Assembly (NCBI GenBank): GCA_030446305.1
Contig: JASUSA010000004.1
Span: 1 to 64,000 of the forward strand
DNA length: 64,000 nucleotides
Direction of reading: 5' to 3'
Source: Clostridiales bacterium
Lineage (GTDB): Bacteria; Bacillota; Clostridia; Peptostreptococcales; Acidaminobacteraceae
Shown: positions 43,086 to 59,245 of the stretch, piece by piece
Layout of the letters: each line of letters opens with the position of its first letter
Numbering within the stretch: the first letter of the stretch is position 1
Made by a program: the position numbers and the translations under genes
The notes under the pieces: model-generated
Database searches by the model: none
What the model was told of the DNA's origin: nothing
The model's input: only the letters and a program-made list of their open reading frames with translations

Positions 43086-44870
43086 ATGGGCGAGGCATTA
43101 AATGGTGCAAAGCGGTCGCATTATTGCGGCGTACTGCGCGAATCACATATTGGCGAAACGGTCACTGTCATGGGATGGGTTCAAAAACGCCGAAATTTAG
43201 GGAGTTTGATTTTTATAGATCTTAGGGACCGTGAAGGCATTTGCCAAATTGTATTTGACGCAGAAGTCTCAGTTGAAGCGCTGGAAAAAGCAAATGCGCT
43301 TCGCAGTGAATTCGTTATTTCCGTGACAGGTGAAGTTAAAAAACGACATAGCGTCAATCCTCAAATGCCAACGGGAATGGTTGAAATCTTTGCATCCGAG
43401 CTTAAGATTCTCTGTGAATCAGAGGTGCCGCCAATCCATGTTGAAGACGGTGATGAAGCCAACGAACGCCTGAGATTAAAATACCGATATCTCGATTTAA
43501 GAAAACCTTCAATTCAGAAGAATTTCTATTTAAGACATAAAATAACATCGACAGCGCGTCAGTTTTTAAACGAAAACGGCTTTGTCGACATTGAAACACC
43601 AGTACTTGGGAAACCGACACCGGAAGGTGCACGCGACTATCTCGTGCCGAGCCGTGTCAATCCCAATAAGTTTTATGCGCTGCCGCAGTCGCCACAGCTC
43701 TTTAAACAGCTTTTAATGGTATCGGGCTTTGATCGCTATTATCAGATTACAAAGTGTTTTAGAGATGAGGATTTAAGAGCAGACCGTCAGCCGGAATTTA
43801 CACAGATTGATATTGAAATGTCTTTTGTCGAAGAAGATGATGTCATGGCAATCAATGAAAAACTGCTGGCAGCTATTTTCAAAGAGGCCGTCGGTTACGA
43901 TATCCCACTGCCGCTTCCGAAAATGACCTATGCAGAAGCAATGAACCGCTATGGTTCAGATAAACCGGATATTCGCTTTGGATTTGAGCTTAAATGTGTC
44001 AACGAAATCGTTAAAGATGTTGATTTCAAAGTGTTTACATCTACTTTAGAAAACGGCGGCGATATTCGTGGCATCAATGTCAAGGGCTTTGGTGACCGGA
44101 TTTCAAGAAAAGAAATTGGCAAACTCGAAGACTTTGTCAAGACATATGGGGCAAAGGGGCTCGCATGGATTAAAACATCGGCAGACGGCGTTTCGTCGCC
44201 AATTGCCAAATTCTTTGACGATGCTCAGATGCAGGCAATACTTGAGGCGATGGATGCCGGTGACAATGACCTGATGCTCTTTGTAGCGGATAAGCCAAGT
44301 GTTGTTTTTGATTCACTTGGCGCACTTCGCAATGAGCTTGCAAAGCGACTAGAACTCGTTAGTCCTGATGTATATGCTTTCCTTTGGGTAACGGACTTCC
44401 CGCTTTTCGAGTACGATGAAGAAGAAGGCCGCTATGCTGCTAAGCACCATCCTTTTACGGCACCGAAAGACGAAGATGTCGATCGAATACTAACGGCGCC
44501 GGGTGAATGCTGTGCCAAGGCCTATGATATTGTCTTGAATGGTTACGAAATTGGCGGTGGCTCTATCAGAATTCATGATTCAAGTGTTCAGGAAAAAATG
44601 TTCAGTGCACTGGGGTTAACAGAAGAAGTGGCACAGGATAAATTTGGCTTTTTCATTAATGCCTTTAAATATGGTGCACCGCCACACGGTGGGATTGCCT
44701 TTGGTTTAGACCGCATTGTCATGTTGGCGGCAGGAACGGACAACATCCGTGACGTTATTGCCTTTCCTAAAACGCAAGATGCCCGCTGTCCGCTTACGGA
44801 CGCGCCAAGTGCAACCGATGAAAAGCAGTTAGATGAACTCTATATTGCACTGAAGCCTGTTGAAAAGTAG
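43086..44870 (+). CDS. aspS: Aspartyl-tRNA synthetase
   Basis: Charges tRNA-Asp. The 594-residue bacterial-type enzyme has the N-terminal OB anticodon-binding domain (VTVMGWVQKRRNLGSLIFIDLRDREG, about 22-47), motif 1 near 150, motif 2 FRDEDLRADRQPEFTQID (about 218-235), the bacterial GAD insertion domain (about 300-420) and motif 3 GGIAFGLDRIVML (about 537-549). ATG 43086 lies behind CAGGAGG and one base after the hisS stop, so translation is coupled; further upstream in-frame ATGs are inside hisS. Whether it is a discriminating or non-discriminating AspRS cannot be told from this. Confidence 0.97.
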   Translation: MGEALNGAKRSHYCGVLRESHIGETVTVMGWVQKRRNLGSLIFIDLRDREGICQIVFDAEVSVEALEKANALRSEFVISVTGEVKKRHSVNPQMPTGMVEIFASELKILCESEVPPIHVEDGDEANERLRLKYRYLDLRKPSIQKNFYLRHKITSTARQFLNENGFVDIETPVLGKPTPEGARDYLVPSRVNPNKFYALPQSPQLFKQLLMVSGFDRYYQITKCFRDEDLRADRQPEFTQIDIEMSFVEEDDVMAINEKLLAAIFKEAVGYDIPLPLPKMTYAEAMNRYGSDKPDIRFGFELKCVNEIVKDVDFKVFTSTLENGGDIRGINVKGFGDRISRKEIGKLEDFVKTYGAKGLAWIKTSADGVSSPIAKFFDDAQMQAILEAMDAGDNDLMLFVADKPSVVFDSLGALRNELAKRLELVSPDVYAFLWVTDFPLFEYDEEEGRYAAKHHPFTAPKDEDVDRILTAPGECCAKAYDIVLNGYEIGGGSIRIHDSSVQEKMFSALGLTEEVAQDKFGFFINAFKYGAPPHGGIAFGLDRIVMLAAGTDNIRDVIAFPKTQDARCPLTDAPSATDEKQLDELYIALKPVEK

Positions 44871-44896
44871 GTAGTGCTCTTTGAGAATGCATCTCA

Positions 44897-44925
44897 TTGT
44901 AAAATGGTTATAAAAGGCGTATAAT
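44897..44925 (+). promoter_or_regulatory. Promoter of the RseC-like gene
   Basis: TTGTAA (44897-44902), 17 bases, TATAAT (44920-44925): a strong sigma-A promoter about 80 bases before the start codon. Confidence 0.7.
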
Positions 44926-45003
44926 AAAATAGAATGTTGCTTTAAAGGTTATATAATCAAAAACGGTATAAAAAACCGCTGAATGTTTAGAAATGAAGGT
45001 GAA

Positions 45004-45462
45004 ATGATGGATCGAACGGGTGTCATTGTCTCTGTAGACAAAGAATTTTCAAAGATCAAATTATTGCGACATACAGCTTGCGGAAGCTGTGGCGCTTGTC
45101 ATTTGGGTGATGAGCAGAAAGATGTCATGTTGGTTGCAAAAAACGATGTGCATGCTGAAGTTGGTGATATGGTTGAAGTATCCATGGGAACCAGTGGTGT
45201 TTTGAGTGCAGCGTTTATTATGTATATGATTCCGTTGATGTCACTCTTTGTAGGCCTTGTTGCAGGGATCGGCATATTAAACGGCATGCATTACAGCGGC
45301 AACGTAGAAATGGCAGCTGCCGTTATCGGCTTGCTGTTTATGGCGGGCGCATTTCTCATTATTCGATTAAATGACAAACGCTTTTTAAAGAGCGATAAAT
45401 ACACGGCACATGTGGCTGCGATTATTCAGAAATCAAATGACAGCCTGTATCCGCTTGCTTAA
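45004..45462 (+). CDS. RseC/MucC-like SoxR-reducing system family protein
   Basis: A 152-residue membrane protein of the RseC/MucC family. The N-terminal soluble domain (about 1-65) has the cysteine cluster CGSCGACH plus the preceding conserved GVIVSVDKEFSKIKL segment, followed by two membrane helices (AAFIMYMIPLMSLFVGLVAGIGIL and AAAVIGLLFMAGAFLIIRL). RseC-type proteins associate with the Rnf electron-transfer complex and SoxR reduction in proteobacteria; stand-alone copies are common in clostridia. Start 45004 (or the adjacent ATG 45007) follows GAAGGTG; the in-frame ATG at 44983 lacks a site. It is a single gene with its own promoter and terminator. Confidence 0.85.
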   Translation: MMDRTGVIVSVDKEFSKIKLLRHTACGSCGACHLGDEQKDVMLVAKNDVHAEVGDMVEVSMGTSGVLSAAFIMYMIPLMSLFVGLVAGIGILNGMHYSGNVEMAAAVIGLLFMAGAFLIIRLNDKRFLKSDKYTAHVAAIIQKSNDSLYPLA

Positions 45463-45513
45463 CCTAGACGATTAAGGCAGCGGCAATATGAGCAGAGGAA
45501 CAAAGTAGAGCTG

Positions 45514-45556
45514 AACCGACGGCTGCACGATTGAAAGTGCAGTGCCGTCGGTTTTT
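45514..45556 (+). terminator. Intrinsic terminator after the RseC-like gene
   Basis: AACCGACGGC-T-GCAC (45514-45528) pairs with GTGC-AGT-GCCGTCGGTT (45537-45552), followed by Ts. Confidence 0.92.
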
Positions 45557-45624
45557 GTCGTCTTGGGCGAATCCTTTTTATGGCAGTGCATTGTCCTCAC
45601 ATCGTTTTTCAATGGGGAACAGAG

Positions 45625-45653
45625 TTGAAATCATGCTATATTTACCATAAAAT
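45625..45653 (+). promoter_or_regulatory. Promoter of the sigma-54 activator gene
   Basis: TTGAAA (45625-45630), 17 bases, TAAAAT (45648-45653). Transcription would start near 45660, which excludes the in-frame ATG at 45580 and supports a start near 45694. Confidence 0.65.
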
Positions 45654-45693
45654 AAAGATGATAACGACTTTTCAGAAATGGAGACAATTGGTT

Positions 45694-47112
45694 ATGAGGA
45701 TGAAGCAGCAAGTGCAGAAAGAAGCGTGGGAAACGTTAATTGAACAGATTGAAGAAGGCGTGCATATCGTCGACGACCAAGGCGTTACCATTGTTTACAA
45801 TCGAGCGATGTCTGAAATAGAGGGCTATGCACCTGAACAGGTCATTGGTCATCACTTGCTCGAAATCTATCCAAACTGGCAAAAAGAAAACAGTACGTTG
45901 CTAACGGTTCTCGCCAGCGGAGAAGCAATTTATGGCAGGCGTCAACAGTATGTCAATACAAAAGGCAAACGCATCACAACCGTTAATACGACATTGCCGC
46001 TATTTGAGAGAGGCGTTCAGATTGGTGCCATAGAGATTGCAAGAAATTTAACAGCCGTCTCACATATGAGCGAACAGATCCTTGCACTGCAGCAACAGCT
46101 TCTGAAACCTAATCAGCCAAAAGAAAAAATAAGTCATTACACCTTTGAGCACATGATTGGCAAGTCCGCCGTGTTTATGAAGGCAAAACAAACGGCGATT
46201 TTTGCGGCAAAAAGTGATTCCAATGTTCTCATTTATGGCGAGACGGGAACGGGCAAAGAGGTTTTTGCACAAAGTATTCATTATGCCAGTCGGCGGTTTG
46301 AAAAACCTTTTGTGGCACAAAACTGCGCCGCAATTCCCGAAACCCTGTTGGAAGGCATCCTCTTTGGTACGACAAAAGGTGCCTATACAGGCGCTGTCGA
46401 TCGCCCAGGTCTCTTTGAACAGGCTAATGGCGGGACGCTGTTTCTGGATGAAATTAATCATATGCCGCTAAGCCTGCAAGTAAAACTCTTAAGGGTTTTG
46501 CAGGAAAAAACATTGAGGCGCATTGGCGGCTTAAAGGAGATCGCCGTTAATGTTCGCATCATTACAGCGACAAATGAACCGCCAAATGTGCTGCTGTCAC
46601 AGGAAATGCTGCGGCGGGATCTTTACTACCGAATTAATGTGATCTATATTCATATCCCGAAATTAATGGCACGTCGAGACGATATTCCACTGCTGGCAAA
46701 TGCATTTATAAAACAGTTCAACCGCAGCATGGAAAAACGGGTTCAGGGAATATCGAATGCGTTTATGGAACGGTTGATGGATAATAAATGGCCCGGCAAC
46801 GTAAGAGAGCTTCAAAATGTCATTGAAGTGGCCATGAATGCGGCAGAAGAGGATGCGCTTCAATTAAAATCGACGGTTTATGAAACAGCGTGGATTGATG
46901 AAGCGCGTGGAGAAAATGAGCAGATGTCAGAGCCGATACACGCATATGATCACATAGACAATCTCGATGCCTATATGCATAAGGTTGAAAGCGATATCAT
47001 TATGCACGTGCTTGAAAACAGTGACGGCAATATATCTAGGGCGGCAAGAAAGCTGAATCTGTCTCGTCAAAACCTCCAATACAAGATTAGAAAGCTTAAT
47101 AACACACTGTGA
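45694..47112 (+). CDS. PAS/AAA+/Fis sigma-54-dependent transcriptional activator
   Basis: A 472-residue enhancer-binding protein. In order: a PAS sensor domain (about 10-120; IEEGVHIVDDQGVTIVYNRAMSEIEGY), a sigma-54-interacting AAA+ domain with Walker A GETGTGKEV, the sigma-54-contact loop GAYTGA (nt 46378-46395, the GAFTGA motif with Tyr), Walker B GGTLFLDEI and the arginine-containing RRDLYYRINV region, then a Fis-type helix-turn-helix (GNISRAARKLNLSRQNLQYKIRKL). The nearest -24/-12 promoter in the window precedes the ornithine cluster 2.3 kb downstream, so it is the natural candidate regulator of ornithine catabolism. That link is inferred. The start could also be ATG 45700; GGAG at 45680 favours 45694. 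Confidence 0.92.
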   Translation: MRMKQQVQKEAWETLIEQIEEGVHIVDDQGVTIVYNRAMSEIEGYAPEQVIGHHLLEIYPNWQKENSTLLTVLASGEAIYGRRQQYVNTKGKRITTVNTTLPLFERGVQIGAIEIARNLTAVSHMSEQILALQQQLLKPNQPKEKISHYTFEHMIGKSAVFMKAKQTAIFAAKSDSNVLIYGETGTGKEVFAQSIHYASRRFEKPFVAQNCAAIPETLLEGILFGTTKGAYTGAVDRPGLFEQANGGTLFLDEINHMPLSLQVKLLRVLQEKTLRRIGGLKEIAVNVRIITATNEPPNVLLSQEMLRRDLYYRINVIYIHIPKLMARRDDIPLLANAFIKQFNRSMEKRVQGISNAFMERLMDNKWPGNVRELQNVIEVAMNAAEEDALQLKSTVYETAWIDEARGENEQMSEPIHAYDHIDNLDAYMHKVESDIIMHVLENSDGNISRAARKLNLSRQNLQYKIRKLNNTL

Positions 47113-47191
47113 TTTTACGCAGTTTTTATATAAATTTTACGGTCATATGACGTTGCTGTGCTATAGTTCTTCATGAAAGAGAGGACGTCGT

Positions 47192-49030
47192 ATGGATATG
47201 GCAACAGCAGAAATGGTAACGTCGCCGCCTTTAGGCGATTGCGAATCGGACGCATTAACATTCCAGCAAATATTAGAGCAAGGCAATATTTCGACGCGCT
47301 ACCAGCCCATTGTCAATTTAAAATCGGGTGACATCATTGGCTACGAAGCGCTGTCAAGGGGGCCGATGGACAGCGAGTTTTATTCACCGCTCGCATTGAT
47401 TGACAAGGCGCATGAACTGGGACTCGTTTGGGAACTTGAAATGCTCTTTCGACAAAGGGCACTTGAGCATATTAATGCGCTTCAGGCGGATCAGTATATG
47501 TTTATTAACGTCGATCCGGATGTAATCAAAACACATGAGTTCAAATCCGGTTTGACGCGCGAATACCTCGATTTCATTGGCGGCAAAGAGACGAACATCG
47601 TCTTTGAAATTACAGAGCGGACGGCGATAACAGATTATGAAATGTTTCAGCGCGTTCTTGAAAATTATCGAAAACAAGGTTATCAAATTGCAATAGATGA
47701 TGTTGGCGCGGGGTATTCGGGACTGCGTTCGATTACAGAAATAAGGCCTAACTTTATTAAGATCGATATGGACTTGATTCGCAATATCGATAAAGACTTT
47801 TTTAAACAAGCGTTGATCAAGGCGTTTGTTGAAACGGCGACGACGACAAATATTACGATAATTGCAGAGGGAATTGAGACAAAAGAAGAGTTGAAAACAC
47901 TTATTTTGCTGGGCGTCCATGCGGGACAGGGATTCTTGCTGCAGCAGCCGCAATTGCTGTTTACAGGCATCAGCAGCGCCATAAAGCAAAAAATTTATGA
48001 CTACAATCATATTTCCTTTAACCTCAATCAGTTTTCGCAGGCTTATCACTATATTTCCAATCTCGTCAATGTACCTAAGGAAACGACATTTGAATCCATG
48101 ACATCGTGTGAGACCATTAGAAATTATATGGAAAAAGAATGTTTAAGGCGTGTCTGCATTTGTGATCACGAACAGCCCGTCGGCATTGTTATGAAGCATA
48201 ATTTAGATGCGACGATGTCCGGCAAATATGGGTATGCGGTCTTTTCCAATCGACCGATTGAACGCATTATGAATCGAAAGCCGCTTGTGGTAGACTACTA
48301 TACGCCGATTAATGTCGTCGCCAAACTGGCGATGGGGCGCTGCGATGATGAAATTTTTGATGATGTCGTTGTAACGCAGTCTTCACAGTTTTTTGGCCTC
48401 GTTTCCATGAAAAACATTTTTGAATATACGCTGATGTATGAGAAAAACAGTGCAAAGGAACAGAATCCGCTGACCGGTCTGCCGGGCAATACCATTATCA
48501 ACCGCGTATTGACTGATTTAGTGAGTTCCGAAAGCCAAGCCTGTGTGATGTATGTCGATATTAATGAATTTAAAATTTACAATGATGTCTATGGCTTTGA
48601 AAAGGGTGATGTGATGATCAAATCACTTGCTGAAATGATCAAATCAGAAGCCGGACAAGTATTTCCGCAGACCGCTTTTGTTGGTCACATAGGTGGTGAT
48701 GACTTTCTCGTCGTATGCAGCGGCAGCGAGGTCAGTTATGAAATGCTGGCAAATCGCATCATCAACCGTTTTAGCGGTGAGCGCTCGGCATTCTTCTCAA
48801 GCGAACACAATGCGCATCACCAGATTGTCTCAGAAGACCGTTATGGCATTACGCGAACTTTTTCACTGACATCACTTTCGATTTCTGGAATATTCGGTGA
48901 TCTGTCATCGTATAAGAGCAGTGACCGGCTTAGTGAAGCACTGGCAAAGCTTAAGAAAATCGTTAAGAAGAAAGGCGAGAGCGCTTCAATTTTCATTAAT
49001 TGTACCCCTTCAACTGAAGAAATGATATGA
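47192..49030 (+). CDS. EAL-CBS-GGDEF cyclic di-GMP signalling protein
   Basis: A 612-residue soluble protein with the reverse domain order. The EAL phosphodiesterase domain (about 18-265) looks catalytically complete: YEALSR, FINVDP, FEITERT, DDVGAGYSG, FIKID, EGIE and GQGF. A middle segment (about 300-420) resembles a CBS-domain pair. The GGDEF domain (about 430-600) ends in a variant signature GGDDF (nt 48692-48706), with Asp where active cyclases have Glu, so cyclase activity may be weak, absent or replaced by GTP sensing. Thus a phosphodiesterase regulated by nucleotides is most likely. GAGAGGA precedes the ATG. It lies between the sigma-54 activator and the ornithine cluster and ends at a strong terminator. 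Confidence 0.9.
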   Translation: MDMATAEMVTSPPLGDCESDALTFQQILEQGNISTRYQPIVNLKSGDIIGYEALSRGPMDSEFYSPLALIDKAHELGLVWELEMLFRQRALEHINALQADQYMFINVDPDVIKTHEFKSGLTREYLDFIGGKETNIVFEITERTAITDYEMFQRVLENYRKQGYQIAIDDVGAGYSGLRSITEIRPNFIKIDMDLIRNIDKDFFKQALIKAFVETATTTNITIIAEGIETKEELKTLILLGVHAGQGFLLQQPQLLFTGISSAIKQKIYDYNHISFNLNQFSQAYHYISNLVNVPKETTFESMTSCETIRNYMEKECLRRVCICDHEQPVGIVMKHNLDATMSGKYGYAVFSNRPIERIMNRKPLVVDYYTPINVVAKLAMGRCDDEIFDDVVVTQSSQFFGLVSMKNIFEYTLMYEKNSAKEQNPLTGLPGNTIINRVLTDLVSSESQACVMYVDINEFKIYNDVYGFEKGDVMIKSLAEMIKSEAGQVFPQTAFVGHIGGDDFLVVCSGSEVSYEMLANRIINRFSGERSAFFSSEHNAHHQIVSEDRYGITRTFSLTSLSISGIFGDLSSYKSSDRLSEALAKLKKIVKKKGESASIFINCTPSTEEMI

Positions 49031-49070
49031 AAAATTGGCATACTGGCCAACGCGTGTTTTCATATAGATG

Positions 49071-49127
49071 AATCCCCTGTTAGATGATGCTTCAAGTATT
49101 GAAGCATCTTTGGACAGGGGATTTTGT
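49071..49127 (+). terminator. Two-tier intrinsic terminator after the EAL-GGDEF gene
   Basis: An outer stem AATCCCCTGT (49071-49080) / ACAGGGGATT (49114-49123) encloses a perfect inner hairpin, GATGCTTCAA-GTA-TTGAAGCATC (49086-49108), followed by TTTG. It isolates the ornithine cluster from upstream transcription. Confidence 0.9.
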
Positions 49128-49213
49128 TTATTTCGCAAAGCTTTCTGTGGGAAAATGTTTGCAGGATGCAGTGGCCTTACCTTTATAGAAGAAAAGTTAG
49201 CTTAGAAAACATC

Positions 49214-49279
49214 TGCAAAATTATTTGCACATATTGCATTGTGTAAAAATAATTTGCACACAAACGCAAAATTATTTGC
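49214..49279 (+). promoter_or_regulatory. Three palindromic upstream activator sites before ord
   Basis: Three related palindromes: TGCAAA-ATTA-TTTGCA (49214-49229), TGTGTAAA-AATAA-TTTGCACA (49240-49260) and GCAAA-ATTA-TTTGC (49266-49279). Their centres lie roughly 150-200 bases upstream of the sigma-54 promoter, the usual place for enhancer-binding-protein sites. A further half site TTTGCA occurs at 49158-49163. The likely binder is the Fis-type activator encoded at 45694-47112 (inference). Confidence 0.7.
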
Positions 49280-49406
49280 TTTTTTCAATCATGTAAATGA
49301 ATGGATAATTGATGCGATGTGTTGTTATGCATTATTCAATGTATGAATAAAGAAACATTCAGTGATTGCAATGGATACATAAGATGTGAATTTATAAAAA
49401 TGCGTA

Positions 49407-49423
49407 TGGAATCAATATTGCAT
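49407..49423 (+). promoter_or_regulatory. Sigma-54 (-24/-12) promoter of the ornithine cluster
   Basis: TGGAAT-N5-TTGCAT, with the obligatory GG (49408-49409) and GC (49420-49421) separated by exactly ten bases, fits the sigma-54 promoter pattern. Transcription would start near 49433, leaving a leader of about 120 bases before ord. Confidence 0.72.
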
Positions 49424-49555
49424 TGACTAATGACATACGAGCAGTCGGTAATGCCGATTGTTCAGAAGGATAGACTTTGTGATGCATGCAATATGGGCGT
49501 TAAAGCATAACGTGTGAATTGTGTAAGCATTGAAATGAAGAGGAGGTATTGATTC

Positions 49556-50608
49556 ATGAGAACAGAACCGGTTAAAGTGGTTATTTGGGGATTTGGTGCC
49601 ATGGGAAGCGGTATGGCAAAAGTCTTGCTCAATAAAAAAGGCGTATCCATAGTCGGCATCTGTGACTGCCATGAAGCGCGCAGAGGACGTGAAATGCATG
49701 AAGTGTTGGGGGTTGACAGACTTGACAGAAAGCCCGTTATCATTGAAGCGGAAATCGAAAGTGTCTTAACAGAGGGCTGCTGTGACATCTGTCTGATTGC
49801 GACACATTCTTTTACAAAAGATGCATTTCCGGGTATTGCTTATGCGCTTTCAAAAAAGGTGAATGTCATTTCTACGGCAGAGGAGATGGCTTACCCGAAA
49901 GCGAAGAATCCAGCACTTGCCGAACAACTGGATCAATTGGCGAAGGCGAATGGCGTTTCCGTTTTGGGAACCGGCATCAATCCGGGCTTAATGATGGACC
50001 TTTTAGTGGTAGCGTTGACGGGCTGCATGACAGAGGTAAAGCACATCGAGGCGAAACGCGTCAACAGCCTTTCGCCATTTGGCAAGGCCGTGATGGACGA
50101 GCAGGGCGTTGGTTTGACGGAAGCAGCATTTTTAGCGGGTGCAGCAGATGGGAGCATTGCCGGACACGTTGGCTTTGAAGAGTCTATTTCGATGATTGCA
50201 GAAGCGTTGCAGCTCTCAATTGATCATATTAAAACGCAAAAATCGCCGATTTTAACGGCGGTGGAACGAAAATCCGCCTATGGACATGCAGCGGCAGGCC
50301 ATGTTGCCGGCGTCAATATGACAGGGCAGGGATATTGTCAAGGTGAAGCCGTCATCAATATGATTCATCCGCAGCAGATTGAGCCGCAGCTCGGCGGTGT
50401 TCAAACAGGTGATTACATTACACTGACGGGAACGCCGCCGGTTCACATGGCCATTACGCCAGAAGTCGACGGCGGTATTGGCACCATTGCCATGTGTGTC
50501 AATATGATTCCGCATGTTGTCAATGCAAGGCCGGGACTTAAAACCATGCTGGATTTACCGGTGCCAAGAGCCATTATTGGCGATATGCGGCATTATATGG
50601 AGGTTTGA
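49556..50608 (+). CDS. ord: 2,4-diaminopentanoate dehydrogenase
   Basis: Oxidatively deaminates (2R,4S)-2,4-diaminopentanoate with NAD(P)+ to 2-amino-4-oxopentanoate and ammonia in ornithine fermentation. The 350-residue protein starts with a Rossmann dinucleotide motif (VVIWGFGAMGSGMA, Gly at 12, 14 and 17) and has the later NPGLMMDLL and KRVNSLSPFGKAVMDEQGVGL segments shared with dihydrodipicolinate-reductase-like dehydrogenases. AGGAGG precedes the ATG. It is the first gene of the cluster, directly behind the sigma-54 promoter, and is followed by ortA after one base. Assignment rests on family features plus the full pathway context. Confidence 0.93.
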   Translation: MRTEPVKVVIWGFGAMGSGMAKVLLNKKGVSIVGICDCHEARRGREMHEVLGVDRLDRKPVIIEAEIESVLTEGCCDICLIATHSFTKDAFPGIAYALSKKVNVISTAEEMAYPKAKNPALAEQLDQLAKANGVSVLGTGINPGLMMDLLVVALTGCMTEVKHIEAKRVNSLSPFGKAVMDEQGVGLTEAAFLAGAADGSIAGHVGFEESISMIAEALQLSIDHIKTQKSPILTAVERKSAYGHAAAGHVAGVNMTGQGYCQGEAVINMIHPQQIEPQLGGVQTGDYITLTGTPPVHMAITPEVDGGIGTIAMCVNMIPHVVNARPGLKTMLDLPVPRAIIGDMRHYMEV

Positions 50609-50609
50609 G

Positions 50610-50921
50610 ATGATGTTTCAGAAAGAGGCGTGGGTACGCATTAAGCGCATCGTCATGCGACCGGAAGAGCGGACTGCACAAATTCCGGAAGACACGCGAA
50701 ACGTACCGCTTGAAATGTGGGTGAAAGGTTTCGCAGAACAAAACGGCAATCTCGGTGATACCATCCGGGTTCGAACACTGACCGGACGCATTGAGACAGG
50801 TGAAGTCGTTGAAATAGAGCCGTCATATCGACATGATTTTGGAAAGTTTATACCTGAAATATTGACGATTGGCATAACACTCCGCGATATTTTGGATGGG
50901 GGTGATAACGATGGCGAGTAG
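50610..50921 (+). CDS. ortA: 2-amino-4-oxopentanoate thiolase, alpha subunit
   Basis: The small subunit of the PLP-dependent thiolase that cleaves 2-amino-4-oxopentanoate with coenzyme A to D-alanine and acetyl-CoA. The 103-residue product (AWVRIKRIVMRPEERTAQIPEDT near the start, GRIETGEVVEIEPSYRHDFG in the middle) has the OrtA pattern. The start lies six bases after GGAGG and one base after the ord stop; the adjacent ATG at 50613 is also possible. It overlaps the start of ortB, so the two subunits are translationally coupled. Confidence 0.92.
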   Translation: MMFQKEAWVRIKRIVMRPEERTAQIPEDTRNVPLEMWVKGFAEQNGNLGDTIRVRTLTGRIETGEVVEIEPSYRHDFGKFIPEILTIGITLRDILDGGDNDGE

Positions 50922-52347
50922 CGATTACAAGATGGGATATAAAGACGTGATGAATCGTCGCAATGAAATTATGAAACGTGCCGTCGGCATTGATTATGCG
51001 GCGTTTGAATTCGATCGCATCGGTTTTGATTACGAACGCATGATGCGCGAAGTGGGCTATTCTCTTTCGGAAGTTATGGCGATACAGCGCGCTCAGGGCG
51101 TTGGCAATACGCCGCTTTTAAAACTAAATCGCCTAACGGCACTGGCACGAAAATTGAGTCCGACGGGGATGGGGGCACAGCTTTTTCTAAAAGATGAAGC
51201 ATCAAATCCATCCGGCAGTTTTAAAGCAAGACGTGCGGCAGTTGCCGTCTATCAGGCAAAAAAGTTGGGATACAAAGGTGTCATTGCGGCGACGAGCGGC
51301 AACTATGGCGCAGCCGTTGCATCACAAGCTGCCATGCAGGGCTTGAAGTGTATCATTGTACAGGAAACCTATGATTCCAAGGGGAAAGGTCAGCCTGAGA
51401 TTATTGAAAAAGCACGTAAATGTGAAGCTTTTGGTGCAGAAGTCGTTCAGTTGACAGTGGGGCCAGAGCTCTTCTATGAATTCTTGGTACTTCTTGAACA
51501 AACGGGATATTTCAACGCCTCTCTGTATACACCTTACGGCATTGCGGGTATCGAAAGTCTCGGTGCTGAGATTGCCGATCAGATGCTGGTCCAGACAGGA
51601 CGCTATCCAGATGCAGTGGTCTGTACCAATGCAGGCGGCGGCAATTTGACGGGAACAGCCAGAGGGCTTCGCAAACGTGGTGCTGTAGAAACAACAATCA
51701 TCGGTGCTTCTGTTGACTTGTCGGGGCTGCATATGGCAAGTGACGGGGATTTTAATCGGAAGTCTTTTACGACAGGTCATACGGGCTTTGGCCTGCCTTT
51801 TGCAACGATGCCAGATCGATCTGATGTGCCGCGATCGGCAGCGCGTCCACTGCGATACATGGATTCGTATGTTACGGTGAAACAGGGAGAAGTATTCTAC
51901 ATGACCGAGGCACTCGCGCAGCTTGAGGGGATGGAACGCGGTCCTGCCGGCAATGTATCATTGGCAGCGGCATTTGCACTCGCCATGACCATGCCGGAAA
52001 ATACAGCCATTGTCGTACAGGAAACAGAATACACTGGTGCCGGCAAGCACTTGCAGCCACAGCTTAGCTTTGCCAGAGAAAATGGCATAGCGATTCGCTT
52101 TGGCGACCCCGAAGAAGAAATACCGGGTAAAAGCATTATTCTGCCCTCACATCCGTCACTTATGAAAGCGCGTCCGTTGCCTTTAGTGCAACTGCGAAAA
52201 CGACTGGTGGAGAATCTTGTGTCGCCTGCGGTGTCAGCTCACGCGCAGCTGACAGCACATGAGCTGGATTTCTTAGCCGACGAAAGTCGGCTCACACGTG
52301 AAGCGATCGAAAAAATCATTAGACAGGTAATCCCATCCGATAGTTGA
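50911..52347 (+). CDS. ortB: 2-amino-4-oxopentanoate thiolase, beta subunit (PLP enzyme)
   Basis: The large catalytic subunit of the thiolase. The 478-residue protein is a fold-type II PLP enzyme related to threonine synthase/cysteine synthase: the PLP lysine is Lys105 in NPSGSFKARRAA, followed by AATSGNYGAAVA and the phosphate-binding glycine-rich NAGGGNLTGTARG (about 245-257). ATG 50911 is inside the end of ortA and follows GGGGGTG; the ATG at 50896 is upstream of that site. It is followed after about 80 bases by oraS. Confidence 0.94.
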   Translation: MASSDYKMGYKDVMNRRNEIMKRAVGIDYAAFEFDRIGFDYERMMREVGYSLSEVMAIQRAQGVGNTPLLKLNRLTALARKLSPTGMGAQLFLKDEASNPSGSFKARRAAVAVYQAKKLGYKGVIAATSGNYGAAVASQAAMQGLKCIIVQETYDSKGKGQPEIIEKARKCEAFGAEVVQLTVGPELFYEFLVLLEQTGYFNASLYTPYGIAGIESLGAEIADQMLVQTGRYPDAVVCTNAGGGNLTGTARGLRKRGAVETTIIGASVDLSGLHMASDGDFNRKSFTTGHTGFGLPFATMPDRSDVPRSAARPLRYMDSYVTVKQGEVFYMTEALAQLEGMERGPAGNVSLAAAFALAMTMPENTAIVVQETEYTGAGKHLQPQLSFARENGIAIRFGDPEEEIPGKSIILPSHPSLMKARPLPLVQLRKRLVENLVSPAVSAHAQLTAHELDFLADESRLTREAIEKIIRQVIPSDS

Positions 52348-52430
52348 TACGAACAAAATAGAAAATAGAAGAGACCCTGTATTGGCGGTTAGGCGCTATA
52401 TACCAACGATATGAAAGAGAGGGAGACAAG

Positions 52431-52808
52431 ATGAATCATTATACAAAGCGTGAAGATGATTTTGAAAACAGGCGAAAACACCTTGAACAGATGACGGAAA
52501 AAGAAGTGGAGGCGCGCTTCTGGTCACTGCTGGATGAAATTGTTGATCCGCTGTTGGCACTTGCCAAAACACATACAACCCCATCAATAGAACGCTCCGT
52601 TCTGCTAAGAATGGGATTTTCAAGCTTAGAGGCTAAACCGATGGTGGAAGAGGCTATTCGCAGAAATCTCATTGGTCACGGTGTTGGGCACCTCGTTTAT
52701 TACAAAGCGATGCAAGATGGCACCGCTATTCGAGAGGCAGGACTTGCCATGCTAAACGGTGAGGGGTGGGAAGCACTTGAAGCTCATTTCAGTCAGGAGG
52801 TGGCGTAA
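52431..52808 (+). CDS. oraS: D-ornithine 4,5-aminomutase, small subunit
   Basis: The small subunit of the adenosylcobalamin- and PLP-dependent mutase that converts D-ornithine to (2R,4S)-2,4-diaminopentanoate. The 125-residue product (RREDDF-type start KREDDFENRRKHLEQMT, then EVEARFWSLLDEIVDPLLALAKTHTTPSIERSVLLRMGFSS) is helical and matches OraS in size (about 120). GAGGGAG precedes the ATG. Its stop overlaps the start of oraE by one base, which keeps subunit amounts equal. Confidence 0.94.
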   Translation: MNHYTKREDDFENRRKHLEQMTEKEVEARFWSLLDEIVDPLLALAKTHTTPSIERSVLLRMGFSSLEAKPMVEEAIRRNLIGHGVGHLVYYKAMQDGTAIREAGLAMLNGEGWEALEAHFSQEVA

Positions 52809-55063
52809 TGAAACCGTCATTAATGCCCAATGAAAAGATTGATGTACGCTCTATTTTAGAGGATTTAGAAAATTATCGGCCAAAAAGGCGCAGCTGGATC
52901 TGGCGTGAAAAATCGGATTGTCAAACCTACGGTCCCTTTCAATATCAAAATATGTCGTCGCCGCTGACAAATGGTATTGCACAGCCTGCGGCCGGTTATT
53001 TCGGCAATATTGACCCACAGCCCGAGAACACAATCACCACAGAGATTGCCTCCGGGCGCTTTGAAGACGATATACGCCGCATGCGCATGGCAGCATGGCA
53101 CGGAGCCGATCATATCATGGTTATTCGCACAGCAGGTCAATCGCATTTTGACGGCCTTATTGAAGGCACGCCGCAGGGCATTGGCGGTATTCCCATTTCG
53201 CGAAAGCAAGTTCGTGCACATCGAAAGGCCCTTGACCTCATTGAAGAAGAAGTGGGCAGACCCATTAATTATCATTCCTATATTTCAGGTGTTGCAGGTC
53301 CGGACATTGCCGTCATGCTCGCTGAAGAAGGCGTCAATGGTGCACATCAGGACCCTCAGTACAATGTGCTCTACCGCAACATTAACATGGTTCGCTCCTT
53401 TGTCGATGCAGCAGAATCAAAAAAAGTCATGACATGGGCCGAAATGGTTCAGATCGATGGTGCACACAATGCCAATGCCACAGCACGCGAAGCTTGGAAA
53501 GTCATGCCGGAACTCATGGTGCAGCATGGTATTAATGCGCTCTTTTCGCATAAAGTCGGCATGCCAAAAGCAAATATTGCACTGTCGACAGTACCGCCGA
53601 CAGCTGCGCCGGCACCCTGTGTTCGACTGGATCTTCCTTATGCCGTTGCACTCAGAGACCTCTTCAAAGCGTATAAGATTAGAGCGCAGATGAATACAAA
53701 ATACATCACTTCATCCTCGAGAGAAGCAACGGTGACCCATGTGATGAACATGTTGATTTCAAGACTTACCTCTGCGGATATTCAATCTACGATTACACCG
53801 GATGAAGGGCGCAATGTACCATGGCACATGTACAATATTGAAGCATGCGAAACGGCAAAACAGGCACTGTCGGGGATGGATGGCCTTATGGAACTGGTAA
53901 CGCTTAATCGAGAAGGTGTCCTAGGCAGCGAAGTGCGAGAACTTAAGGAGCGGGCTGTTCTCTTTTTAGAAGAAATCATTGCTGTTGGCGGTTACTTTGA
54001 AGCTGTAGAAAAAGGATTTTTTGTGGATTCCGGGTTATATCCCGAGCGAAACGGCGACGGAATCGGAAGACGGTTGGATGGCGGTGTAGGTGCGGGTACT
54101 GTGTATAAACGCCATTCGGATTATATGGCACCTGTAACGGCGCATTTTGGCAATAATAACATCGCACAATATGATGAAACGAAAGCATCGACACCCTCTG
54201 CACTCATTGACGGTTGTACACTGGAAAAACCGGAAAAAATCATTTATATTGACGAATTGGATCCTGAGGACAATGTCAATAAGCGTCTGGACGAAAGTGA
54301 ACGCTATCGCCAAAAGGAGACGCCGACGATTACCCCTGAAGTGCAATGGCTCGGCGATGGTGTTGTTCAGGTAGACCTCGTATTGCCAACGGATGCGCGC
54401 TCGGCAAAATATGCAGCCGTTTACTTTGGCAAACAGATGAATCTTCAGGAAGTTGAGGTCATTCACATTGAAGCGCTGCATCCAAGTGAGGGAACGCGTG
54501 TGCAGATCAAAGGCGTTTTAAAAGTAGACCTCAAGCTTTCAGATCTCATTATTCCGGAAACGCCGGAAGTTTATGATGACGATACCATTCGTCATATTTT
54601 TGAAGTAAACCCCGTTAAGATCGTAGCCGGAACCGTCGGCGAAGATGAACACTCGGTCGGTTTAAGGGAGGTCATTGACATTAAACACGGCGGTATTGAA
54701 AAATATGGCTGTGACGTTACTTACCTTGGCACCTCTGTGCCAATTGAAAAGCTTGTCGATGCTGCCATTGAAATCAATGCGGATGTCATTTTGGCTTCTA
54801 CCATTATTTCACACGATGACGTACACTATAAAAACATGAAGCGCATTCACGAATACGCCATTGAAAAAGGTGTGCGGAACCGTTTTATCATCTGTGCCGG
54901 CGGGACACAGGTTACACCTGAAATCGCAAGGAAAAACGGCATGGATGAAGGATTCGGAAGGTATGACCGCGGGGTTAACGTTGCGACGTTTATCGCCAAG
55001 ACGCTGACGGACGCGAAAGAAGCGCATATCTCAGAGCGTGCCGTTTCAGGGAAAGAAGCGTGA
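52808..55063 (+). CDS. oraE: D-ornithine 4,5-aminomutase, large subunit (B12/PLP)
   Basis: The large subunit carries both cofactors. The 751-residue protein has a long TIM-barrel domain with the PLP/adenosine-binding region and a C-terminal Rossmann B12 domain with the lower-ligand motif D613-x-H615-x2-G618 (DEHSVG). Lys626 in IDIKHGG, just after it, is the likely lysine forming the PLP imine, as in the C. sticklandii enzyme. The length is close to the known OraE (about 735). It overlaps oraS by one base and is followed by the MutL-type reactivase, as expected for a radical B12 mutase that suffers inactivation. Confidence 0.96.
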   Translation: MKPSLMPNEKIDVRSILEDLENYRPKRRSWIWREKSDCQTYGPFQYQNMSSPLTNGIAQPAAGYFGNIDPQPENTITTEIASGRFEDDIRRMRMAAWHGADHIMVIRTAGQSHFDGLIEGTPQGIGGIPISRKQVRAHRKALDLIEEEVGRPINYHSYISGVAGPDIAVMLAEEGVNGAHQDPQYNVLYRNINMVRSFVDAAESKKVMTWAEMVQIDGAHNANATAREAWKVMPELMVQHGINALFSHKVGMPKANIALSTVPPTAAPAPCVRLDLPYAVALRDLFKAYKIRAQMNTKYITSSSREATVTHVMNMLISRLTSADIQSTITPDEGRNVPWHMYNIEACETAKQALSGMDGLMELVTLNREGVLGSEVRELKERAVLFLEEIIAVGGYFEAVEKGFFVDSGLYPERNGDGIGRRLDGGVGAGTVYKRHSDYMAPVTAHFGNNNIAQYDETKASTPSALIDGCTLEKPEKIIYIDELDPEDNVNKRLDESERYRQKETPTITPEVQWLGDGVVQVDLVLPTDARSAKYAAVYFGKQMNLQEVEVIHIEALHPSEGTRVQIKGVLKVDLKLSDLIIPETPEVYDDDTIRHIFEVNPVKIVAGTVGEDEHSVGLREVIDIKHGGIEKYGCDVTYLGTSVPIEKLVDAAIEINADVILASTIISHDDVHYKNMKRIHEYAIEKGVRNRFIICAGGTQVTPEIARKNGMDEGFGRYDRGVNVATFIAKTLTDAKEAHISERAVSGKEA

Positions 55064-55067
55064 AGCC

Positions 55068-56450
55068 ATGAAAGTGGATGCATTAGTTGCTGAAATCGGC
55101 AGTACCACCACCGTTGTCAGTGCTTTTGACGGACTGACAACGATTGAGCCGAAGCTGCTGGGACAAGGCATGTCTCGGACAACTGTACAGGAAGGCGATG
55201 TCTATATTGGTCTCAGCGGTGCGGTTGACGCTTTAAAAGCAACCCTTGGTACAGAAAAACTGGTTTACGATCATTTTTTTGCCTGCAGCAGCGCTGCAGG
55301 TGGTCTTAAAATGACGGTGCACGGGCTCGTTTACGATATGACGGTGAAAGCAGCAAAGGAGGCGGCACTCGGTGCGGGCGGCAATATTCAAAGCATTACG
55401 GCTGGAATGCTGACACCTTCCGATTTAAAACGCATTAAAGCACAAAAACCAAATCTTATTTTGCTCGCCGGCGGTGTGGATTATGGTGAACGCGAGACTG
55501 CACTGGCAAACGCCGAGGCATTGCTGCCCGTTATTGATGACACACCGGTGATCTATGCAGGCAACTGTGAAAATGTGCAGGTGATCCGTGATCTGTTTGA
55601 TGCGGCAGGAAAAGGCGGACAGCTTTATACAACTGAAAATGTCTATCCTAAAATCGATACCCTGAATGTCGTGCCGACGCGGCGTATTATTCAATCCGTC
55701 TTTGAAACGCATATTGTCAAAGCGAAGGGCATGTCGCGCATAAGGGAAGCGGTGGACGGCGTCATCATGCCGACACCAGGTGCTGTGATGCGTGCGGCAC
55801 AAATGCTTTCAGAGATAATGCCGGACATTCTGGTCATTGATTTAGGTGGGGCGACGACAGATGTCCATTCGGTGACATCCGGCAGTCCGGAAATTTTAAA
55901 ACGGCTGCTTTCACCGGAACCGGATGCCAAACGTACAGTTGAAGGTGATCTCGGCGTTTATGTCAATGCAGATAAGCTCATTGCCATGATTGGTGAAGAC
56001 AAATTGCTTCACATGCTGTCGATGGATTTAAAGTCGCTGACGGCATTGATTGAAACACATGTCCTCATTCCGCAAAATGAGAGTGAAACCGCCTTTATTC
56101 ACGCACTGGCGCAGGTTGCTGTTTTGACAGCCGTACAGCGGCATGTAGGCAAGCATACCGTGCGGTTTGCCGGCGGCGGGCAAGGTTATGCCGAGGGCAA
56201 AGATCTGACACAGATAAAGCGCGTTATTGGCACTGGCGGCGTCCTGACGCGTTTACCCGAAGCTGAGGCATTGATTCTAAGCAGTTTTCGCAATCCTAAG
56301 GGCGATTTGCTCCTGCCGCAGCAAATGCCGAAGATCTTCATTGACAGGCAGTATATCATGGCAGCTGCAGGGGTTTTGTCCGGGCATTATCCGGAGGCAG
56401 CCCAAAAACTGTTGTTAAATAGTTTGGGCATTCAGGAGGCATTGCGATGA
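55068..56450 (+). CDS. MutL/GlmL-family reactivating factor for the ornithine aminomutase
   Basis: A 460-residue protein of the MutL/GlmL family (ASKHA ATPase fold): the N-terminal VDALVAEIGSTTTVVSAFDG phosphate-1-like motif, the second nucleotide motif DILVIDLGGATTDVHSV (about 258-274) and VRFAGGGQGYAEGKDL near the C-terminus. GlmL serves glutamate mutase; the copy in ornithine clusters (sometimes called OR-4 or the ornithine aminomutase reactivase) is thought to exchange damaged cobalamin. ATG 55068 is chosen over the upstream in-frame ATG 55038 inside oraE, which would add ten residues before the conserved start. It overlaps orr by four bases (ATGA). Confidence 0.9.
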   Translation: MKVDALVAEIGSTTTVVSAFDGLTTIEPKLLGQGMSRTTVQEGDVYIGLSGAVDALKATLGTEKLVYDHFFACSSAAGGLKMTVHGLVYDMTVKAAKEAALGAGGNIQSITAGMLTPSDLKRIKAQKPNLILLAGGVDYGERETALANAEALLPVIDDTPVIYAGNCENVQVIRDLFDAAGKGGQLYTTENVYPKIDTLNVVPTRRIIQSVFETHIVKAKGMSRIREAVDGVIMPTPGAVMRAAQMLSEIMPDILVIDLGGATTDVHSVTSGSPEILKRLLSPEPDAKRTVEGDLGVYVNADKLIAMIGEDKLLHMLSMDLKSLTALIETHVLIPQNESETAFIHALAQVAVLTAVQRHVGKHTVRFAGGGQGYAEGKDLTQIKRVIGTGGVLTRLPEAEALILSSFRNPKGDLLLPQQMPKIFIDRQYIMAAAGVLSGHYPEAAQKLLLNSLGIQEALR

Positions 56451-57529
56451 GCCTATTTCCAAGACTGGTTTTTGACTGCATGCAGTATCGAAACAATGTA
56501 AAAAAAGTAGCGGCCTACTGTGCGCCGTTTGATATCGGCATCTTTGTCGTCACAAAAGTATTCCGCGCTTTTCGCCCGCTGGTTGAGGCAATTCAGGATC
56601 TCGACATTGACGGTATTGCGGATTCGAGACTGGAAAATCTTGAACATGTCAGTGATATTCCCATTCAAAAGCTCTTGTTGCGGCTGCCGATGCCATCAGA
56701 AGCAGAACGCGTTGTCAACGTTGCGGATATCAGCCTCAATTCGGAATGGGAGACTTTGGTGACACTGAATGAAGCGGCTGGAAGACTGTCGAAAAGACAT
56801 GCCGTGATTTTAATGATGGAAATGGGCGATTTGCGTGAAGGAATGGACAATGCGCAGTTCGAATGGATACTCAATCGCATACACCACTTGAAAAACATTG
56901 ATTTTATTGGGATAGGCGCCAATTTTTCATGTTACGGCGGCATTATGGCGACGCCGGAAAAACTTAACGCATTGGCGGCAAATACAGCGCGTTTTACGCA
57001 AGTTACCGGTGTGCAGAATCCAATTGTATCAGGCGGCAATTCCAGCAGCTTATACCTGGTAGAAAATGGTGAGATGCCTTCCGGTATCAATAATTTAAGA
57101 TTAGGTGAAGCGTTGATATTAGGACGGGAGACAGCGTTTGGCAACCATATTTTTGACCTCAGTGATTCACTTGTTTCACTGGATGTAGAGCTTATTGAAA
57201 TTAAAGTGAAGCCATCATATCCAATTGGCGTTATGACCTACGATGCCTTTGGCGAAAAACCTCAGATAGAAGACCGCGGTATGATTACGCGCGGCATTCT
57301 GGCAATTGGTCAGCAGGATGTCGATCTAAAAGGATTGATTCCATACGATGAAAACATTGAAATCCTTGGCGGTTCAAGCGATCATCTCATTGTTGAGATA
57401 AAAGCAGGCGACTATCGAGTCGGAGATATTGTTCGATTTCGCGTTAATTACAGTGCACTGCTTAGACTGTCAACGTCGCCCTATGTGCAAAAGCGCTTCG
57501 AAAATATCGTGCCGTCAATCCAGCTGTAA
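56447..57529 (+). CDS. orr: Ornithine racemase (PLP, alanine racemase fold type III)
   Basis: Interconverts L- and D-ornithine, feeding D-ornithine to the aminomutase. The 360-residue protein has the alanine-racemase-like TIM barrel with PLP lysine Lys37 (FVVTKVFR), DGIADSRLENL, MMEMGDLREG and GGNSSSLYLVENGEMPSGINNLRLGEAL (about 199-226), typical of the ornithine/YhfX-like racemase group. The ATGA overlap with the reactivase gene couples their translation. It is the last gene of the cluster; a strong hairpin follows about 200 bases later. No ornithine transporter is in the window. Confidence 0.92.
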   Translation: MSLFPRLVFDCMQYRNNVKKVAAYCAPFDIGIFVVTKVFRAFRPLVEAIQDLDIDGIADSRLENLEHVSDIPIQKLLLRLPMPSEAERVVNVADISLNSEWETLVTLNEAAGRLSKRHAVILMMEMGDLREGMDNAQFEWILNRIHHLKNIDFIGIGANFSCYGGIMATPEKLNALAANTARFTQVTGVQNPIVSGGNSSSLYLVENGEMPSGINNLRLGEALILGRETAFGNHIFDLSDSLVSLDVELIEIKVKPSYPIGVMTYDAFGEKPQIEDRGMITRGILAIGQQDVDLKGLIPYDENIEILGGSSDHLIVEIKAGDYRVGDIVRFRVNYSALLRLSTSPYVQKRFENIVPSIQL

Positions 57530-57726
57530 CATTACTTGACTTTAGGATTGGGAAGACAAGAGGCAATGGCATTATACAAATGATAATCCTTCACCCAGTA
57601 GCGATAACTTTCGTAAGACTGGAAACGGCATATGAGAGTGTGGCCTAAACTGGAGACGCCTATGCAATGTCGCTGCATGCTCATTAAAAAAAACACCATT
57701 AAAAACGATAGCATACGGATACGATT

Positions 57727-57765
57727 GAGGCATATCAAATGATTGCAGATCATTTGATATGCCTC
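57727..57765. terminator. Perfect 16-bp hairpin downstream of orr
   Basis: GAGGCATATCAAATGA (57727-57742) is exactly complementary to TCATTTGATATGCCTC (57750-57765) around a 7-base loop. Only a short T-poor tail (TTCATATT) follows, so termination efficiency is uncertain. The 335-base gap 57530-57864 otherwise holds no gene I can support. Confidence 0.6.
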
Positions 57766-57807
57766 TTCATATTGGCGGATGAGGTAACCGGCTATGCCAT
57801 TGGATGA

Positions 57808-57836
57808 TTGACTTGATGTACCAGGGGTATTTAGAT
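57808..57836 (+). promoter_or_regulatory. Weak promoter candidate for the histidine kinase gene
   Basis: TTGACT (57808-57813), 17 bases, TTAGAT (57831-57836). The -35 is good and the -10 poor. Confidence 0.35.
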
Positions 57837-57864
57837 AAAAAGACGATTAAATTGGAGGCTGATC

Positions 57865-59199
57865 ATGGATTCGGATTGGATTAAATATTTTGAGGTGCAA
57901 GATGCCCCGATTCCGTATTTAAAAATGTTGATAGAGGGGATTACGTCAAATATTGATGAACAAATATTTGTACTTTCATCAAAAGGCGATGTACTTTTTC
58001 AAAGTAATGTAAATGTCTTAAACTTTGGTGACGATTTGATTTTAAAAATGCAAAAGGAAATCGTGCTCATGCAGGTGCTGCACCAAACTTATCGCAAAAG
58101 CTATCTTGGTATTTGTCAGAATAAGCCGCTGGAAGAAGGTGCTTGTCAAAAGCGCATGCTCGACAGTCGATTTGAATTTTTTTACCGTGCATTGACATGT
58201 GAAGCGGGAACTTGCTTTTTTGTCACAATAAAGGATACAACGGCACTTCTGCAAAATGAGCAAGTCATTTTAGATCTCAACTATCAATTAAATGACAAAG
58301 TCCATAAAATAAATGAAGCCGAATTAAAATTGATGAATCAGGATCGCTTGGTGGCAATTGGCCATCTGGCATCTGGTATTGCACATGAGATTAACAATCC
58401 GCTTGGTTTTGTCAAGAGTGACGTCAAGACAATGCATGATTATCTGGAACGGCTCATAACGCTATACAAAACAGCCGTCGATGTCTTGGAAGGCCTTAAT
58501 CAGTGGCAGTGTCAGCATCCGTCCGGCGAGCTCGTGAGACTGACGCGAATGCTTGAAGCGGAAGTGATGAATGAGGATATGCAGTACATTGTCAATGATT
58601 ATGCTTCATTGATAAAAGAAACGAATATCGGCATTCATCGCGTTGAAAATATCATTACCAACTTAAAGCAATTTTCAAAACTTGATTCTGACGAGGCCAT
58701 CATGCCATATGACCTCAATGCGGGTATTCGGCAAATATTGGCAGGCATTCAACATCAATCAAAAAATGCCGTACGAATTGAAACCACCTTTGGAGAACTT
58801 CCTTTGACGCTGGCAAATGGCAGCGATGTCAATCAGGCGCTGCAGAATATATTGCTGAATGCGCTGGATGCATTTGATACCGCCAAGAAAGATCATGACC
58901 GTTTTATCAAGGTTACGACTTACAGTGACAAGGCGTTTTTATGCTGTGATATATTGGACAATGGCAGTGGTATTTTGCCTAAAGATGCCATTAAAGTCTT
59001 TGAACCTTTTTTTACGACAAAAGCGATTGGTAAAGGCTGTGGGTTAGGTTTGAGCATTGCCTATGACATTGTCGTAAACCGTCACTGCGGGACACTTCAA
59101 TTTGAAACAGCGCCAAAAGAGGGCAGCCTTTTTAAAATTCGTCTGCCGGTTAGATCAATTGACCGCAGTATACGCGATGAATTTGCGAATCATCTATAA
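57865..59199 (+). CDS. Cytosolic sensor histidine kinase
   Basis: A 444-residue histidine kinase without membrane segments. The N-terminal part (about 1-135) resembles a PAS-like sensor and has four cysteines (84, 94, 112, 117; CQNKPLEEGACQ and TCEAGTC) that might bind a metal or cluster. A coiled coil leads to the phospho-acceptor His174 (ASGIAHEINNPLGF), then a long dimerisation region and an HATPase domain with NILLNALDAF (N box), DNGSGI (G1), PFFTTKAIGKGCGLGLSIAYDI (F and G2 boxes). The H box resembles NtrB/HWE-adjacent types that pair with receiver proteins encoded nearby. Two receiver genes follow. GGAGG precedes the ATG. Confidence 0.92.
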   Translation: MDSDWIKYFEVQDAPIPYLKMLIEGITSNIDEQIFVLSSKGDVLFQSNVNVLNFGDDLILKMQKEIVLMQVLHQTYRKSYLGICQNKPLEEGACQKRMLDSRFEFFYRALTCEAGTCFFVTIKDTTALLQNEQVILDLNYQLNDKVHKINEAELKLMNQDRLVAIGHLASGIAHEINNPLGFVKSDVKTMHDYLERLITLYKTAVDVLEGLNQWQCQHPSGELVRLTRMLEAEVMNEDMQYIVNDYASLIKETNIGIHRVENIITNLKQFSKLDSDEAIMPYDLNAGIRQILAGIQHQSKNAVRIETTFGELPLTLANGSDVNQALQNILLNALDAFDTAKKDHDRFIKVTTYSDKAFLCCDILDNGSGILPKDAIKVFEPFFTTKAIGKGCGLGLSIAYDIVVNRHCGTLQFETAPKEGSLFKIRLPVRSIDRSIRDEFANHL

Positions 59200-59245
59200 G
59201 AAGTGATGATGTTATGATAAAATAACAGGAGAAAGTGAGGCGGCT

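Follow-up and report, generated by a model that had tools for sequence, protein, structure and literature searches.

A predicted OrdR/sigma-54 switch upstream of the ornithine-fermentation operon of a Fusibacter-like clostridium

Palindromes of the form GCAAA-W4-TTTGC stand upstream of the ornithine-fermentation operon in the 64,000-nucleotide stretch of DNA analyzed here (the window), and are very probably the UAS sites of OrdR, a sigma-54 activator encoded at 45580-47112 that would switch on the operon via an RpoN promoter at 49407-49422. This ornithine switch is a new example of the already known OrdR switch, not a new kind, and the OrdR regulon in this genome is one operon. An earlier note, made from the sequence alone, had described three palindromes and a -24/-12 promoter ahead of these genes and had read them as a sigma-54 unit for ornithine with a new operator sequence. 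We confirm the observation with two reservations, a degenerate second site and a weak promoter, and support the interpretation in part: the ornithine sigma-54 unit is right, the novelty of the operator wrong.

The ornithine locus

The locus comprises the following features, with coordinates given in the window:

45580-47112, + strand: ordR, PAS - sigma-54 AAA+ - Fis-type HTH activator of 510 residues (Pfam PAS_4, Sigma54_activat, HTH_8)
47192-49030, + strand: EAL - CBS - GGDEF gene of cyclic-di-GMP type (Pfam), between ordR and ord
49064-49131, + strand: strong hairpin followed by T-rich DNA (-35 kcal/mol, z = -8.6)
49214-49229, no strand: UAS1, predicted OrdR site 1, TGCAAAATTATTTGCA, perfect palindromic arms
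49242-49258, no strand: UAS2, predicted OrdR site 2, TGTAAAAATAATTTGCA, degenerate, with one mismatch and a 5-bp spacer
49265-49280, no strand: UAS3, predicted OrdR site 3, CGCAAAATTATTTGCT, perfect 10-base core, outer T/A replaced
49407-49422, + strand: candidate -24/-12 sigma-54 promoter, TGGAATCAATATTGCA, correct GG-N10-GC spacing, weak, A after GG
49556-50608, + strand: ord, 2,4-diaminopentanoate dehydrogenase (NF040740, 502.9 bits vs cut-off 400)
50514-50921, + strand: ortA, 2-amino-4-oxopentanoate thiolase subunit (NF040739, above cut-off)
50896-52347, + strand: ortB, thiolase subunit (NF040741, above cut-off)
52431-52808, + strand: oraS, D-ornithine 4,5-aminomutase small subunit (PF16552)
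52808-55063, + strand: oraE, D-ornithine 4,5-aminomutase large subunit (NF040743, above cut-off)
55038-56450, + strand: oraF / Or-4, GlmL-related (MutL family) reactivase-like protein (NF040744, above cut-off; PF13941)
56447-57529, + strand: orr, ornithine racemase (PF01168, alanine-racemase family, and operon position; NF040742 408.8 bits, under cut-off 480)

NCBIfam and Pfam searches thus bore out the ord-ortAB-oraSE-reactivase-orr cluster that had been read directly downstream of the sites, with Orr below its curated cut-off, and Pfam bore out the PAS/AAA+/Fis activator, whose gene lies 2.1 kb before the sites. The true ordR start is probably the ATG at 45694 or 45700, and homology of the product to other OrdR proteins starts at about residue 41-50; the true ortA start probably lies inside the listed frame, near the ord stop. 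Beyond ordR, the upstream genes are hisS, aspS and an RseC-like gene (Pfam). RpoN is encoded in the genome (Sigma54_DBD, 212 bits), and the closest named genome is that of F. paucivorans (Ord 89% identical). No known RNA element was found across 44800-58000.

The EAL-CBS-GGDEF gene occupies the same place in eight loci (L005, L007, L009, L010, L014, L021, L029, L032), and in the Fusibacter group it has stayed between ordR and ord even at loci that other genes have entered. A link between cyclic-di-GMP signalling and ornithine use is possible. At the other end of the operon, a transporter gene (nhaC) is absent directly after orr, and a histidine kinase, an HDOD response regulator and a second response regulator stand there instead (57865-61502); the two response regulators are retained after orr in several Fusibacter-group loci.

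The hairpin at 49064-49131 is conserved in F. paucivorans and is a probable terminator separating ord from upstream transcription. Its stability, the T-rich stretch that follows it and its conservation are consistent with a terminator that would make ord reliant on its own promoter.

Operator sites and promoter

All three of the palindromes first described are present, in differing states of preservation. GCAAA-N4-TTTGC is perfect at 49215-49228 and 49266-49279, with the degenerate UAS2 between them; a literal pattern scan found one full TGCAAA-N-TTTGCA match in the window, which is UAS1, the outer bases of UAS3 being replaced. With a weight matrix trained on other genomes and built for a 4-bp spacer, UAS1 and UAS3 are the two best places in the 64 kb window, at 24.4-24.7 bits with the next at 7.1, and UAS2 scores merely 1.5 bits under that spacer model. 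The departure of UAS2 from the pattern (GTAAAAAT-ATTTGC) is retained in Fusibacter paucivorans. Chance is a poor source of such sites: across 20,000 dinucleotide shuffles of the 500 bp preceding ord, the A/T-spacer form of the core averaged 0.00135 sites per shuffle, and none of the 20,000 held two.

The genome-wide search for the palindrome that the earlier note had proposed showed the two perfect sites to be unique to the ord upstream region. GCAAAWWWWTTTGC occurs exactly twice in the assembly (3.40 Mb, 90.6% complete), both times before ord and 51 bases apart, and UAS1 and UAS3 are the sole matches to GCAAA-WWWW-TTTGC in the 3.40 Mb. Sites with one mismatch occur at 43 further places in the assembly, not more commonly than a reversed control pattern and without clustering. 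A genome-wide search for further targets returned neither a second cluster nor a perfect A/T-spacer site elsewhere.

The UAS centres lie 136-187 bp upstream of the promoter GG, slightly nearer than the 150-200 bases first given. The distance falls within the 100-250 bases usual between UAS and promoter according to a 2019 survey of sigma-54 regulons (PMC6615313).

The promoter is the weakest piece of the OrdR/sigma-54 reading. Its GG-N10-GC spacing is correct, as first noted, and it would place the transcription start of ord near 49433; TGGAATCAATATTGCA scores 8.1 bits, however, whereas the training promoters all reach at least 15.4, and it ranks about 18th in the window; taken alone, the element is modest. 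The low score results from the A after GG (TGGA for TGGC). The case for a promoter would rest on conservation and position: the F. paucivorans counterpart, GCGTATGGAATCA-TATTGCATTGACTAAT, differs by one change, with TGGAAT...TTGCA and its flanks conserved, and the site stands where strong TGGCA..TTGC sites stand in relatives. This weak match, together with some sigma-70-like matches in the ord upstream region, could instead mean that ord is transcribed from a sigma-A promoter, that the palindromes bind a repressor, and that the GG-N10-GC arose by chance. We consider this very unlikely, as the sigma-70-like matches on the + strand number seven in total, not far above shuffles (3.1 +/- 1.8), with none near the predicted start, as the -24/-12 site shows the conservation and placement just described, and as the C. 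difficile ord promoter is of the -24/-12 type (PMC7438776).

Between the UAS array and the promoter lies an inverted repeat, ATTCA-N5-TGAAT, at 49334-49348. In L009 the repeat is near-identical and has the same arms; L007 and L010 have it with one change. This recurrence would fit a two-layer control, in which a global repressor such as CodY acts through further elements between sites and promoter in addition to OrdR and sigma-54. CodY-like boxes with at most two mismatches do occur between sites and promoter in nine of 61 loci (L009, L026, L029, L040, L041, L043, L077, L089, L095), vs 0.23 in shuffles that preserve composition only; the window, by contrast, has no such box, its best CodY-like match carrying five mismatches. 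A second layer of this kind is a tentative and rather doubtful addition to the OrdR/sigma-54 switch.

OrdR as the cognate activator

We conclude from its sequence that the window activator is an OrdR orthologue. In a tree of 112 activators it falls within a clade of 48 ord-linked activators (48/48, support 0.94) that includes the G. ferrireducens protein (L031), and the tree's 34 other activators from this genome lie outside that clade. Its recognition helix, SRQNLQYK, conforms to the OrdR helix [SK]-R-Q-[NTSG]-L-Q-[YH]-K, whose R, Q, L, Q and K never vary, and GAYTGA, a GAFTGA-type loop, is present. Identity with PrdR was rejected, the PrdR equivalog test giving 377.5 bits vs a cut-off of 795.

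The motif accompanies OrdR well beyond this genome. We took ord loci from 80 named genome records (L005-L084) plus relatives, and in dozens of Clostridia GCAAA-W4-TTTGC precedes ord. Within the 500 bases before ord (102 distinct regions) the A/T-spacer core is found at 109 sites, vs 0.09 expected in shuffles, and among the longer loci it is present in 27 of the 36 with an OrdR-like activator within reach vs one of the 29 without (Fisher p = 1.5e-9). The species behind these counts are related, and the counts do not represent independent events. Most of the nine OrdR-bearing loci that lack the strict motif carry versions with one mismatch. In nearly all loci sites are paired 19-24 bp apart, and the Fusibacter group has a third site 28-32 bp away; in relatives the proximal site is typically followed, after about 70-240 bp, by a canonical TGGCA..TTGC promoter. 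We place no weight on helical phasing of the longer gaps, because these are non-uniform at 10.5 bp (R = 0.71) but at 11 bp too, and because the species are related.

In six loci (L024, L025, L026, L031, L094, L095) the ordR coding sequence itself contains a third perfect palindrome of OrdR type, some 422-442 bases ahead of ord and 206-208 bases from the promoter-proximal pair. It falls in the linker before the HTH and is translated as A-K-I/L/M-F-A. L111 has a palindrome at the same spacing, with no activator detected within the fetched locus.

The palindromes might in principle be operators of another regulator, such as a GntR-type protein or another activator, with OrdR acting elsewhere. A GntR gene does lie 4 kb downstream of orr (61518-62168), the right-edge regulator that the earlier note had offered as a possible binder, and the Fusibacter-like 3.4 Mb genome encodes more than 35 sigma-54 activator domains. 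The GntR-type protein, however, has relatives in none of the 80 loci (L005-L084, tblastn), though the motif occurs there, and so fails to account for the conserved motif. The motif tracks with OrdR across loci, and among the genome's other activators with a readable HTH the RQxLQ helix of OrdR type is shared solely by a lysine-linked paralogue, which has its own palindrome. We rejected the GntR protein by its absence from those 80 loci and the other activators with a readable HTH by helix mismatch, and regard operators of another regulator as extremely improbable. Orthology of the activator, co-occurrence of motif and OrdR, and the lack of a motif match of equal quality elsewhere in the genome all favor the sigma-54/activator unit for ornithine that was first proposed.

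We infer a mechanism in which OrdR dimers would bind the GCAAA-W4-TTTGC sites, about two to three helical turns apart, and the PAS domain would sense a signal, which may be ornithine or a close derivative. The AAA+ hexamer would then reach, via DNA looping, the RpoN-polymerase waiting at 49407-49422 and open the complex, turning on ord-ortA-ortB-oraS-oraE-oraF-orr.

The system is known and its operator cannot count as new, because the OrdR regulon and promoter have been published and the same elements recur in known species. A 2019 study that reconstructed Clostridiales sigma-54 regulons predicts OrdR as the sigma-54 activator of ord-ortBA-oraSEF-orr-nhaC in five species, Geosporobacter ferrireducens among them, and lists its UAS motif among the "distinct" ones (PMC6615313); the OrdR/SigL regulon is described from C. 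difficile, C. aceticum, C. scatologenes, G. ferrireducens and Romboutsia (PMC6615313; PMC7438776). A -24/-12 (SigL-type) promoter of C. difficile ord was mapped by start-site sequencing in 2020 and assigned to CD0441/OrdR, with the sigL-mutant fold change given as "NR" (PMC7438776). G. ferrireducens (L031) carries the same palindrome pair, a comparison made on its genome and not on the published UAS logo, and Acetoanaerobium noterae (L201) shows the same layout with the motif. The window shares with the OrdR/SigL regulon the operon, the class of activator encoded upstream, the UAS sites and the -24/-12 promoter; it differs in the lack of a transporter after orr, a three-site array and the base after the promoter GG, and the Fusibacter group differs in the EAL-CBS-GGDEF gene between ordR and ord.

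The claim of a new operator is further weakened by a near-identical box at rocD. In B. subtilis, RocR activates rocDEF in response to arginine, ornithine or citrulline (PMC9245794). Two rocD-linked loci from a phylum-wide draw of genomes encode PAS/AAA+ activators, divergent from rocD and 43-45% identical to OrdR over the matched part, and between the genes both rocD promoters have GCAAA-N5-TTTGC and a canonical -24/-12 site, TGGCACGAT..TTGC. Both proteins, which we provisionally call RocR-like from their linkage to rocD, join the OrdR clade (joint RocR+OrdR support 0.91) and have the helix SRQSLQYR. The OrdR operator is thus a close relative of the rocD box. RocR of B. subtilis and relatives (sigma-L) is, like OrdR, a PAS - AAA+ - Fis activator of ornithine catabolism, but it serves a transaminase pathway, its gene is divergent from its target, and its operator is one base longer; the window activator groups with the RocR-like proteins and would work as RocR does, but its target pathway and spacer differ, and it is classed as OrdR.

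A lysine-linked sister activator

A paralogue of OrdR (44% identical) is encoded directly upstream of the lysine-fermentation operon, kdd-kamA-kamB-kamD-kamE, in this genome (contig C29:18003-19415, - strand; L167:9001-10416). A sigma-54 site, TGGCATCATATTTGCA, lies at kdd in this genome, and the palindrome GCCSAAWWTTSGGC occurs exactly twice in the genome (reversed control 0), both copies flanking the lysine-linked activator gene. In the 112-activator tree such activators group on their own (30/30, support 1.0) as the sister clade of OrdR, and every member has P before RQ. In 27 of the 30 fetched loci kdd comes just after the activator, in nearly all of these with a sigma-54-type site close to the kdd start, and 25 of the 27 activator-kdd gaps contain a match within one mismatch of GCCNAAWWTTNGGC, vs none in shuffles. 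A search of 1.49 Mb of ord loci found no strict lysine-type palindrome.

T-runs follow the lysine palindrome in some genomes and are absent in others, so a terminator is possible. We favor an operator, given the conserved sequence, a further copy upstream of the gene, and the genomes in which no T-run follows. Sigma-54 control of kamA by KamR of Bacillus thuringiensis (PMC4428206) offers a precedent for the kdd-linked activator, KamR being a PAS-containing sigma-54 activator encoded next to a lysine 2,3-aminomutase gene.

RocR/OrdR, for ornithine, and the lysine sister likely make up one small family of activators of amino-acid fermentation. Within it, the start of the recognition helix would shift from [SK]RQ[NT]LQ to PRQTLQ as the operator shifts from GCAAA-W4-TTTGC to GCCSAAWWTTSGGC, the 14-bp frame being unchanged.

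We suggest that the predicted OrdR regulon, so far backed by C. difficile start-site data, extends to the Fusibacter group and many other anaerobes, and that its operator can now be written out, with strong statistics behind it and a tie to activators of RocR type. If the proposed family is real, kdd-kamA-kamB-kamD-kamE of Clostridia would be a sigma-54 regulon apparently absent from the 2019 survey, which does not mention lysine (PMC6615313). OrdR and its lysine paralogue, present in one genome and each with an operator that occurs nowhere else in it, make a clean test case for the choice of DNA site by a Fis-type helix.
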